This document shows, one piece after another, positions 10,730-14,612 of a stretch of DNA of 46,703 nt. Source of the stretch: Rhodothermaceae bacterium (GTDB lineage: Bacteria > Bacteroidota > Rhodothermia > Rhodothermales > Bin80); NCBI GenBank assembly GCA_009841335.1, contig VXLY01000113.1, positions 1 through 46,703 on the forward strand, given 5' to 3'. Numbering within the stretch: the first letter of the stretch is position 1; every line of letters starts with the position of its first letter. Under the pieces are notes generated by a model. It was not told the DNA's origin and made no database searches. It worked only from the letters and a program-made list of their open reading frames with translations. Both the position numbers and the translations under genes were made by a program.

Positions 10730-11896
10730 TTAACTATTTCCAGAGGGCCAGTTGCGGAGGAGTTCCCAACAAAGCCATAAGGCTCGTGGAACATGGAAGC
10801 AGCCTTTGTATGGACCACCTTTGAAACGGTGAGTTACGCGCCCCTCCCGGTCGCAGTAGCCATACCATTCGCCGTGCTCCGGATCCACAAAATGGTCAAA
10901 AGTGTACGCATCCACTTTTCGAAAGGCGGCAAGGTCATCAGGAGCTGACGTAAGCGAATAATTGAGCAGGTGTGCGTAAAGAGCTTCGCAATGAGGCCAC
11001 CAAAGCTTCATGGACCACTCAAGCTGGACTGGACTGAATCCCTCTGCATCCATAAAGTAATAGAGTCCGCCATGCTCTTCGTCCCACCCGAATTCCTGGG
11101 CGCTTCGAATCATGTTTCGGGACGCGTCAATCATATCGGCGTATTCAGCTCTCAGGGCTGCCTGCTGCAGGAACCAGCCGGCCTCAATCGCGTGTCCGGG
11201 ATTCATCAGGCGTCCATCGGGTCCATCCAGACGACTACCATCCGGGGCCACGGATTCAAAGACATGATTGCCGTGTATATGCAATTGGATGCGCTTAAAG
11301 CAATCATTTATTTCGGATGAGCAGTCGGCATCAATCATGACCTCCTCGAGGAGGTTCAGCAGCATCATTGGCACAGCAAGCATTTGGGAAGGTGCCGAAC
11401 CCGCCAAGGCTGGACGTCCAACTTTCGACCAGTCATAAGCCCAAGTCCAGATACGTTCAACCATAAGCCTGGCCTCGTCCACCTGTGCGCGGTGATCCAT
11501 TGCACGACCATGTTCGGACAATGCCAATGCGTAAAAGCACTCCGTAAATATCTTACGCTGTTGATAGATGGGTTGGCCATCACTGGCAAGAGCAAAATAC
11601 ACACGCCCGTCAGGGCGCAGGGCATGATTTATGAGAAAATTCATACCGCCGGTGGCTAGTGAGCGCCACGAGTCACGCTGTTCAACGAGCCGATACAATT
11701 TGCTGAACATCCAGACCTGTCGTGCCAGGAGCCAGATATGTTTGGTGGTATCATAGACTGTACCGTCACGGTCGAGATTGTTAAAAAAGCCCCCGTGGAT
11801 CGGATCCGGGGAGTGCGTTTCCCAGAACGGAAGTACACGTTCAAAAAGCTCGTGCTCATATCGGGACTGCAGGTCTAGGCGTTCGTACTCAGTCAT
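10730..11896 (-). CDS. N-acylglucosamine 2-epimerase (AGE) family protein
   Basis: A 388-residue (alpha/alpha)6-barrel enzyme close to the usual 390-420 of the family. The two histidines used for proton transfer at C2 are in place: His235 in NPGHAIEAGWFL and His368 in KGCFHVPRAL. Other AGE signatures include HGGFFNNLDRDG and TKHIWLLARQVW. Family activities include epimerisation of N-acetylglucosamine to N-acetylmannosamine, cellobiose to glucosyl-mannose, and mannose to glucose; the motifs do not separate these firmly. No signal peptide is seen, so it is cytoplasmic. It is the first gene of the minus-strand cluster and precedes the symporter, consistent with working on the imported sugar. Confidence 0.88.
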   Translation of the reverse strand: MTEYERLDLQSRYEHELFERVLPFWETHSPDPIHGGFFNNLDRDGTVYDTTKHIWLLARQVWMFSKLYRLVEQRDSWRSLATGGMNFLINHALRPDGRVYFALASDGQPIYQQRKIFTECFYALALSEHGRAMDHRAQVDEARLMVERIWTWAYDWSKVGRPALAGSAPSQMLAVPMMLLNLLEEVMIDADCSSEINDCFKRIQLHIHGNHVFESVAPDGSRLDGPDGRLMNPGHAIEAGWFLQQAALRAEYADMIDASRNMIRSAQEFGWDEEHGGLYYFMDAEGFSPVQLEWSMKLWWPHCEALYAHLLNYSLTSAPDDLAAFRKVDAYTFDHFVDPEHGEWYGYCDREGRVTHRFKGGPYKGCFHVPRALWLCWELLRNWPSGNS

Positions 11897-12186
11897 AAAA
11901 AGGGCGGGAATTGATTACATCAAAGTGCCAAACTGAACGAGTAAATTCATTGGCATAGTGGGGTTCTCCATGACTTAGGAAGAGCTTATGAATTGCCGAA
12001 TTATTTTGTAATTTACATCAGGCTGTACGATTTGACTGTCGGTAATGATCGCGTGAACGCGCAAGTCTTTCGTGGCTGGGAGATTGAAGTCATGACTGAG
12101 AACAGCAGAGAGAGTGTCCGCGTCCGACCTCTTGCTACCCCCTGCCCTGCGGCCTTTGGCGGGGCCGAGATACCGATTCATTGACC
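11897..12186. other. Intergenic region between the divergent AGE operon and the tandem-HTH gene
   Basis: About 290 bases with no convincing gene. It must hold the promoter of the minus-strand AGE-symporter operon and that of the plus-strand tandem-HTH gene. The frame of the HTH gene stays open back to a TGA at 12097-12099 without an ATG. No clear Shine-Dalgarno precedes the ATG at 12187. Confidence 0.5.
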
Positions 12187-13266
12187 ATGAACATGCAGGA
12201 GCGCCAGGCAAGGAACCTTGCCATTGTCCGGGACCTCAGGGAGGGCATGAGGCGGACCGATGTAGCTCGTAAGTACGGATTGGCGCGGGAAATTGTAAGT
12301 CTGATCTCTAGTATGCAAAGCGAGGACAACCCTATCAGAAGAAAGGAGCGTGACCAGGCCATCGTACAGGACCTGCAGGAGGGCATGAAGCGGACCGATG
12401 TAGTTCGTAAGTACAGATTGGCCTGGGAGACCATAAGCCTGATCGCTAGAATGCACCGCGCGGATATGGCTATCAGAAGAAAGGAGCGCAGGCAAGAGCG
12501 CGACCAAGCAATCGTGCTGGACCTGCAGGAGGGCATGAAGAAGACCGATGCAGTCCAGAAGTACGGACTGACGTGGCAATACATAACCCGAATCGCTATT
12601 GAGCAAGGCGTGGGCATGGCTAGAATAAGAAAGGAGCGCAGGCAAGAGCGCGACCAAGCCATCGTACAGGACCTGCGGGAGGGCATGAAGGAGGCCGACG
12701 CGATCCAGAAGTACGGACTGACGTGGCAACGCATAACCCAAATCGCTATTGAGCAAGGCGTGGACATAGTTAGCATAAAAAAGGAGCACAAGCAAGAGCG
12801 CGACCAAACCATCGCGCAGGATCTGCAGGAGGGCATGACATCAGAGGAAGCGGCCACAAAGTACAGACTGACACCAGCGTACATCCGCAATATCGCCAGG
12901 GAGCACGTCCTGAGAAGGAAACGAGTTTCGGCCCAGGAACTTGAAGCCAGGGACCGGGCGGTTATGCAAGACTTAAAGGGGGGCATGAGCACCAAGGATG
13001 CGGCTCGAAAGTACGAACGGACGCAGGTACACATATTAACGATCGCCCGGAAACACGGCGTACGCCGGAGCGAACAGAATGCTCGGGGCCGCCAGCTTAG
13101 GGACCTCGCAATAGCCCAGGACTTGCGGGAGGGCATGAGCGTCAAGGAGGTTGTGACCAAGTACGGATTGAGCAAGGGCAGCATATACCGGATTTCTCGG
13201 AAGCAGGGCTTGGGACCGAGACGACGGGGACGTCCACCTAATTCCGCCCCCGCAGATCCGTCTTGA
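12187..13266 (+). CDS. Protein of seven tandem helix-turn-helix units with a C-terminal AT-hook
   Basis: A 359-residue protein built almost wholly of a repeated unit. Units begin at about residues 9, 55, 105, 155, 205, 255 and 305; the last six are spaced exactly 50. Each carries DLxxGM, then KYxL, then IxxI followed by Ala or Ser, as in HTH domains of the Hin-resolvase or Mor type. The four residues opening the presumed recognition helix differ between units: AREI, AWET, TWQY, TWQR, TPAY, TQVH, SKGS. Basic linkers such as RRKERRQE join them. The C-terminus RRRGRPP (about 345-351) is an AT-hook. I infer a multi-site DNA-binding protein. No enzymatic domain or signal peptide is present. The ATG at 12187 is preferred; 12193 is also possible. 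It stands alone between two sugar-related operons, as an inserted accessory gene might. I know of no named family with this architecture. Confidence 0.75.
   Translation: MNMQERQARNLAIVRDLREGMRRTDVARKYGLAREIVSLISSMQSEDNPIRRKERDQAIVQDLQEGMKRTDVVRKYRLAWETISLIARMHRADMAIRRKERRQERDQAIVLDLQEGMKKTDAVQKYGLTWQYITRIAIEQGVGMARIRKERRQERDQAIVQDLREGMKEADAIQKYGLTWQRITQIAIEQGVDIVSIKKEHKQERDQTIAQDLQEGMTSEEAATKYRLTPAYIRNIAREHVLRRKRVSAQELEARDRAVMQDLKGGMSTKDAARKYERTQVHILTIARKHGVRRSEQNARGRQLRDLAIAQDLREGMSVKEVVTKYGLSKGSIYRISRKQGLGPRRRGRPPNSAPADPS
12349..13248 (+). repeat. Six tandem in-frame repeats of 150 bp
   Basis: Units begin at 12349, 12499, 12649, 12799, 12949 and 13099, each 150 bp, with a shorter (138 bp) first unit at 12211-12348. 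Units 12499-12648 and 12649-12798 are the most alike at DNA level, sharing long stretches such as cagaagtacggactgacgtg, which points to a recent unit duplication. The flanking units are more diverged. Confidence 0.85.
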
Positions 13267-13268
13267 CA

Positions 13269-13301
13269 CGCTCTCTTAGACGGTGTAGATAGACGAGAGC
13301 G
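13269..13301 (+). terminator. Weak stem-loop just after the tandem-HTH gene
   Basis: A 7-bp perfect inverted repeat (cgctctc at 13269-13275 and gagagcg at 13295-13301) lies just after the stop codon. The loop is 19 bases and no T-run follows, so termination is only a suggestion. Confidence 0.25.
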
Positions 13302-13685
13302 CAACCACTACGCACAAGATCCCCTGTGCTTCCAGTCGCGTCGTATACCAATCCATACAATGCTCTTTATAATAAGCGCATTCCTGTCGCGGACTTTCTG
13401 GAGCTATTTAGTCATCCTTGGCAGGTCATGCACAATTCCCGCTTGCCCGGGGTCACAGTTGCGGTGCATTGTAGATGCACAATGCGATCGTCTTATAGTA
13501 CAGATTCTTGCCGATGGCGATAGGGTATCCAGATGTGGAAGAATATGTGTAAGTTTACACGGGTGTTTCCTTGGTGACTTGATAAGTGAACTAGTGCAGA
13601 TGCAGTTCAACCAGCCGGGAATAGTCCTACTGAGCGATCTAATTTAGATCATTCATCCGTCCAATGATACATATAGGGGTCAACC
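13302..13685. promoter_or_regulatory. Non-coding region upstream of the isomerase-dehydrogenase-transporter operon, with inverted repeats
   Basis: I see no convincing gene here. Two inverted repeats stand out: gcattgt/acaatgc around 13464-13485, and the near-palindrome gatctaatttagatc at 13636-13650, only 36 bases before the isomerase start. The second is well placed to be an operator for the operon at 13686-16670, but no regulator is identified. Confidence 0.35.
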
Positions 13686-14612
13686 ATGACTGATAGACGT
13701 AAATTCTTACAAACTGCAGCAGTTGCTGCCACGGGGCTTTCACTTGCCCCTGTAACTGTTTCCAAGCCGAGCGTGCGCCGTCCGAATCCGATTGGTGTTT
13801 CTACTTATTCGTTCTGGCGGTTCAATGGTCCGAAAGAGAACTATCCTATCGAAGATTGTATTGATCAGGCCGCGGAGATGGGATTCGATGGCATAGAGTT
13901 GCTTCACGTGCAGATGGCTTCTGAAGAGCCTGGATACTTACAGAGCCTGAAGCGCAGAGCCTTCGTTAATGGTTTGGATTTGATGGGCTTCTCTACACAC
14001 CAGGGATTTGTATCCCCGGAAGTACGGGTGCGACAGCGCAATATTAATGAGACCATTCGCCAGATTGAGCTCTGCTACGAACTTGGAATTCCAACCATGC
14101 GTCTCAACACCGGGAGGTGGGGTACCTCGGCGTCCTTTACAGCGCTAATGGATAACCGTGGGATAGAGCCACCATTGGAAGGTTACACAGACGAGGAGGC
14201 GTTTGGGTGGGTCATAGGTTCTATTGAACGATTGATCCCCAAGGCGGAGCAGTGTGGTGTACTTCTTGGGCTGGAAAACCATTGGGGGCTGGGACGTACG
14301 CCGGAGGGTGTACTCAGAATTGTCGAGGCGATTGACTCACCTTGGTTGAAGGTCACACTTGATACGGGCAATTTCCTGGAAGATCCATACGATAAGCTGG
14401 AAATGCTGGCGCCCCATACTGTATTGATGCAAGCCAAAACCTACTATGGTGGTGGAACATGGTACACGCTGGATCTGGATTATCCGCGTATAGCGGAGAT
14501 CATGCGTCGGCACAACTATGCCGGATATGTATCATTGGAGTTTGAGGGGAAAGAGAGTGAGCAGACTGCTATCCCGAAGAGCCTGGAGCTCTTGCGAAGT
14601 GCATTCAGCTGA
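13686..14612 (+). CDS. Tat-exported sugar phosphate isomerase/epimerase-like TIM-barrel protein
   Basis: A 308-residue member of the xylose-isomerase-like TIM-barrel superfamily. It starts with a twin-arginine signal (MTDRRKFLQTAAVAATG, Arg4-Arg5), so the folded enzyme is expected outside the cytoplasmic membrane. Barrel motifs include GFDGIELLHV, LLGLENHWG (metal-ligand Glu), VTLDTGNFLED (metal-ligand Asp) and GYVSLEFEGKE (final Glu). It differs from the Tat isomerase at 3704 in sequence and loop lengths, so it is a distant paralogue. The next gene begins 6 bases after its stop and the transporter follows 3 bases after that, giving a tight three-gene operon. Likely role: isomerising or epimerising an oxidised sugar. 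Confidence 0.87.
   Translation: MTDRRKFLQTAAVAATGLSLAPVTVSKPSVRRPNPIGVSTYSFWRFNGPKENYPIEDCIDQAAEMGFDGIELLHVQMASEEPGYLQSLKRRAFVNGLDLMGFSTHQGFVSPEVRVRQRNINETIRQIELCYELGIPTMRLNTGRWGTSASFTALMDNRGIEPPLEGYTDEEAFGWVIGSIERLIPKAEQCGVLLGLENHWGLGRTPEGVLRIVEAIDSPWLKVTLDTGNFLEDPYDKLEMLAPHTVLMQAKTYYGGGTWYTLDLDYPRIAEIMRRHNYAGYVSLEFEGKESEQTAIPKSLELLRSAFS

Follow-up and report, generated by a model that had tools for sequence, protein, structure and literature searches.

Zinc fingers and TALE-like repeats are the recognised modular DNA-reading scaffolds. The TALE repeat has 33–35 amino acids (about 34), consists of two helices and builds a superhelical protein (PMC5472282). Tandem helix-turn-helix (HTH) domains are known from the crenarchaeal proteins Cbp1 and Cbp2 (NF040595, PDB 2lvs), which stand alone and comprise three or two units joined by short linkers, and the three HTH domains of Cbp1 are aligned in order along one CRISPR repeat (PMC10883916). 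We also found HTH arrays in two viral proteins: ORF18 of Bacillus phage PM1 (364 aa; L116:2468-3562, annotated either as an RNA polymerase sigma factor or as hypothetical) is a stand-alone protein of approximately seven units, and ORF23 of the haloarchaeal virus HJTV-4 (L138:1420-2394, annotated as hypothetical) has approximately four tandem units followed by an HNH nuclease. The Mor/C activators and the CD3324 family (Pfam Mor, PHROG 836, NF040785) carry one HTH plus extra domains.

We examined the window, i.e. the whole stretch of 46,703 nucleotides that was analysed, and identified a gene encoding seven HTH units (protein P0001), with the following features.

12187..13266, forward strand: HTH-array gene (P0001), 359 aa with seven tandem HTH units (unit profile, Pfam, and a 92% identical orthologue in G008, a Bacteroidota MAG, JAPPGC010000127.1)
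12208..12321, forward strand: HTH unit 1, contact residues REI.SL (unit profile)
12346..12459, forward strand: HTH unit 2, contact residues WET.SL (unit profile)
12496..12609, forward strand: HTH unit 3, contact residues WQY.TR (unit profile)
12646..12759, forward strand: HTH unit 4, contact residues WQR.TQ (unit profile)
12796..12909, forward strand: HTH unit 5, contact residues PAY.RN (unit profile)
12946..13059, forward strand: HTH unit 6, contact residues QVH.LT (unit profile)
13096..13209, forward strand: HTH unit 7, contact residues KGS.YR (unit profile)
13219..13239, forward strand: AT-hook-like RRRGRPP (aa 345-351) in a disordered tail (by eye; pLDDT <50 from residue 344)
13360..13647, forward strand: candidate ORF of 95 aa, 3' of the array and mostly inside the extra segment (no Pfam match)
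11919..13638, no strand: extra segment of ~1.72 kb carried by G000 and G008 only; its flanks, 11918 and 13639, are adjacent in G007 and G009

According to the unit profile, the units of P0001 start at aa 8, 54, 104, 154, 204, 254 and 304, that is, with a step of 46 aa once and then of exactly 50 aa five times, in agreement with the seven tandem units that the earlier note had read in the sequence. The self-identity of the protein at lag 50 was 0.42, compared to 0.136 for the best shuffle (lags 30–79, 1000 shuffles), and a 150-bp period was recovered in the gene with TRF. The Pfam domain HTH_28 matched P0001 above its cut-off (5.8e-16), as did Mor and HTH_23. The RRRGRPP stretch, previously proposed as an AT-hook, has a GRP core with basic flanks when inspected by eye; it is identical in the G008 orthologue and absent from every other array, and the proposal therefore applies to this orthologue pair and not to the rest of the family.

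The AlphaFold2 model of the whole P0001 contained seven three-helix units (mean pLDDT 79, pTM 0.30), and a two-unit model built with 57 unit pairs in the alignment reached a pLDDT of ~86 and a pTM of 0.53, with the helices of its first unit at 2-16, 21-28 and 32-41. Each unit is thus confidently predicted to be a tri-helical HTH, which bears out the earlier assignment, while the arrangement of the units along DNA is left unpredicted by the model because of the low pTM of the whole array. All matches in the fold searches had Z <8; the top match of the two-unit model was 2lvs (Cbp2), which covered both units (Z 7.4, 89 residues, rmsd 8.3 Å) and which, given that Z value, we take as a lead only. 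The PDB sequence search returned no match for P0001 and, with the alignment as query, weak matches only (E≥0.037).

P0001 resembles Cbp1/Cbp2 in its stand-alone tandem HTH domains with short linkers, but the latter are archaeal and have three or two units, compared to seven in P0001 and 4–11 in its stand-alone sister arrays. We considered whether P0001 is a chromatin protein of the Cbp1/Cbp2 kind, coating CRISPR repeats or some other repeated sequence: Cbp1 and Cbp2 are tandem-HTH proteins known to act on one long repeat (PMC10883916), Cbp2 was the top structural match, relatives of P0001 scored 52–72 bits against the Cbp1 model NF040595, and cas1 is present in the genome to which the window belongs. 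However, these scores lie below the 140-bit cut-off, which no relative reached, P0001 itself had no match to the model at E≤0.01, the rmsd to 2lvs is large, and there is no cas gene among the annotated neighbours of the arrays. Nor is a CRISPR role supported by the distribution of the genes across the genus, where array presence does not track cas1 (G006 has an array and no detected cas1, and G002 and G009 have cas1 and no array). P0001 is not a Cbp1, because it falls below the NF040595 score and the arrays do not track cas1, and coating of repeats in the manner of these proteins is very improbable; P0001 may still work like Cbp1.

Similarity to the Mor/C activators and the CD3324 family was found at the level of the single HTH unit, but those proteins have no tandem array. 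P0001 scored 84 bits against the CD3324 model NF040785 (cut-off 65 bits), and two separate stretches of P0001 passed, the best of them covering 45–81 of 82. Several units probably add up to this score; the CD3324 proteins are small with a single unit, whereas P0001 has seven units in 359 aa. The comparison with TALE proteins made in the earlier note was found to be apt in logic, i.e. a fixed scaffold, base-reading residues that differ per repeat and a variable repeat number, but not in fold, since the unit of P0001 is a three-helix HTH with a 50-aa period instead of two helices with a base-specifying loop. The same note knew of no family with this layout, for which Cbp1/Cbp2, PM1 ORF18 and HJTV-4 ORF23 are precedents. 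PM1 ORF18 is of another sequence type (12 bits to the unit profile) and apparently represents an independent array, and HJTV-4 ORF23 differs in unit sequence and parallels the HNH proteins with two units of G003 and G004, whereas P0001 lacks a nuclease domain. P0001 combines several HTH units with differing recognition residues in one chain, as tandem-HTH arrays do in general; its nearest known proteins are the archaeal Cbp1/Cbp2 and the HTH-array HNH nucleases, and it belongs to neither group.

We calculated variability over 38 aligned unit columns (64–82 units), with the contact, exposed and core classes assigned by us on the basis of the HTH fold and of the structural model. The six most variable columns were 32, 28, 27, 16, 31 and 29, five of which correspond to positions 1, 2, 3, 5 and 6 of the recognition helix and the remaining one to the start of helix 2. 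Contact columns were more variable than other exposed columns (rank test, p=9e-5). Between the units of P0001, identity was 0.10 at the five contact positions, 0.50 at other exposed positions and 0.70 in the core, and a similar order was observed within all arrays of at least four units (6–15%, 29–54% and 63–85%, respectively), in none of which a five-residue contact set was repeated. The tetrads listed earlier for the recognition helices were correct, as was the description of a conserved framework with recognition residues different in each unit, and in the homologues it is the surface-exposed side of the recognition helix, and not the core, that varies. Such divergence of the contacts is what separate DNA subsites per unit would give, and it supports different specificities; it is no proof of a code or of binding, since recognition helices vary in any set of HTH domains with different sites.

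The genome to which the window belongs has one copy of the array gene. In total, 14 proteins with these units, the window protein included, were found in 6 of the 10 congeneric genomes, with 2–11 units each: 11 units in G005, 4 in G006 and several proteins with 5–8 units in G003 and G004. Two HNH proteins carry 2 units each and the stand-alone arrays 4–11; the statement that no enzymatic domain is attached therefore holds for the window protein and not for its family, in which a sister gene fuses the same unit type to an HNH nuclease. No match was obtained in other genera at E≤1e-12 (245 genomes of the class and 394 of the phylum, partly overlapping sets). Phyla beyond its own were covered by short peptide patterns from P0001 only, and the restriction to the genus holds for that scope. 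There were no relatives of P0001, L030 or L024 on viral contigs and none of the family on plasmids, and phages gave weak matches only, through which the arrays of PM1 and HJTV-4 were found. In the literature we found no description of bacterial arrays of such size, and a TALE-inspired repeat screen nowhere mentions HTH. The hosts are probably sponge symbionts, judging from the isolate name RHO1_bin_46.

As anticipated in the earlier note, the number of units varies among homologues, even between orthologues: L032 has 6 units and L029 has 5, the difference being an indel of exactly one whole unit. The arrays at the loci G004 C114 (8 units) and G003 C56 (6 units) agree almost fully in their first unit and diverge from there on. 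In the window, the array lies in the extra segment, and all eight remaining congeners lack an array between the same flanking genes. No terminal inverted repeats and no target-site duplication were found at the ends of this segment. The array of G006 lies between two genes that stand close together in G005, and the gene beside the array of G003/G004 C118/C43 occurs in every one of the ten genomes and the array only in some. The loci compared have DNA in common within the arrays and none in their flanks. Arrays come and go as single genes, because empty sites are seen and no flanks are common to the loci; a common cassette was ruled out by the different loci without common flanks.

Most arrays, including the one in the window, have ordinary metabolic neighbours. 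The window gene is flanked by an epimerase gene (10730-11896) and a TIM-barrel isomerase-like gene (13686-14612), which are divergently oriented. This position would suit an ordinary local regulator of the two flanking genes, in which the extra HTH units add affinity only, and HTH_28- and Mor-like units are known in transcription factors. Yet the isomerase-like gene is present in 10/10 congeneric genomes and the neighbour pair is conserved, while eight of these genomes have no array there; moreover, sister arrays adjoin unrelated genes and the contact residues are different in each unit. We regard a local regulator as unlikely.

The window array has no nuclease or methylase neighbour, and arrays with such neighbours were found elsewhere in the genus. 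In G005, the 11-unit array is directly upstream of a type III restriction-modification pair, mod and res. Both G003 and G004 have a Fic-type gene, an array and a type III mod different from that of G005 as consecutive genes, with the array directly upstream of mod; G003 also has a res-like gene there. Two of the seven independent array loci are thus beside a methylase, for which the rough chance is 0.004 if ~20 methylases per 3000 genes are assumed; DNA methylases are abundant in the genus, with up to 30 matches per genome. In G004, an 8-unit array gene begins within an ATGA overlap shared with the gene for an HNH protein that carries two units. The HNH genes of G003/G004 (L026:8054-8956, reverse strand; L028:7556-8356, forward strand) each encode a cysteine-rich stretch, two array units and an HNH domain.

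Three orthologue pairs were compared for selection on the units. In the L029/L032 pair, contact positions had a dN/dS of 1.4 and the remaining unit positions one of 0.28. Amino-acid changes pooled over the three pairs fell on 16/90 contact positions, compared to 13/234 in the core (p=0.0017) and 36/347 at other exposed positions (p=0.067, not significant), so that positive selection at the contact positions is no more than suggested. The overall dN/dS of the window/G008 pair was high (0.79), which, together with the patchy presence of the arrays and the G003 orthologue of the HNH protein with two units, truncated and ending inside the HNH domain, would agree with the decay of a former mobile element or homing-nuclease locus, of which a drifting HTH array without its nuclease was left. 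Against such drift, reading frames are intact in all arrays, the core is maintained between units while the contacts diverge, and the unit positions outside the contacts had dN/dS values of 0.28–0.55 across the three pairs. A drifting remnant is quite improbable on these grounds.

The reading that we favour, and consider fairly probable, is that the window gene encodes a modular sequence-specific dsDNA-binding array that acts as an addressing or repressor protein of genome-conflict systems. P0001 likely binds DNA in a sequence-specific manner. The analysis itself shows the predicted fold, the pattern of variability, the unit indels, the patchy distribution and the nuclease and methylase genes next to or fused with sister arrays, from which we infer that the protein binds DNA, that each unit has its own subsite, and the biological role. 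The seven homeodomain-like HTH units, with their short linkers, would lie in order along a single long dsDNA site, of ~50–60 bp if the spacing is as in Cbp1 with its three units per CRISPR repeat. Each unit would insert the recognition helix into the major groove, reading its own few bp through positions 1, 2, 3, 5 and 6, and the arrays would diversify by gain and loss of units and by fast change of the contact residues on a conserved scaffold. The family may supply addresses to conflict systems of restriction-modification enzymes and HNH nucleases. The window copy, which has no partner gene, would most likely act alone at a single long site or a few of them, as a roadblock or repressor.

More tentatively, the arrays could represent a natural HTH-based modular recognition system, in which 4–11 near-identical units, each with its own five-residue code, evolve through shuffling of units and fast replacement of the reading residues, much as the zinc fingers of PRDM9 or the TALEs do, and give the restriction-modification enzymes and HNH nucleases of Bacteroidota that probably live with sponges separable, protein-encoded and perhaps reprogrammable addresses; this wider reading is possible and, in our view, doubtful. 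Among tandem-HTH DNA-binding proteins, the arrays are remarkable for their size range, their fixed pitch, the turnover of units and the way in which variation is concentrated on the reading face. If the reading is true, an HTH array with a fixed framework, a 50-residue pitch and differing reading residues would be another natural scaffold beside zinc fingers and TALE-like repeats, and the stringing of HTH units into a readable code would become directly testable. The arrays beside type III mod and HNH nuclease genes also suggest that bacterial conflict systems include a targeting component encoded as a protein.

We also observed that the genomes G000–G009 have very many N6/N4 DNA methylase genes (up to 30 matches in one genome of ~3.8 Mb), several of them in pieces. 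The type III mod of G003 (L029:5411-8015) is split over two overlapping frames and no res gene follows the mod of G004 (L032:8402-10159) within the stretch read, so that the type III system at these loci may be decaying. Finally, an antisense frame of 389 aa without Pfam match (12135-13304, reverse strand) spans the whole array and is probably a shadow ORF, and a TTG at 12181 is a possible alternative start of the window gene.
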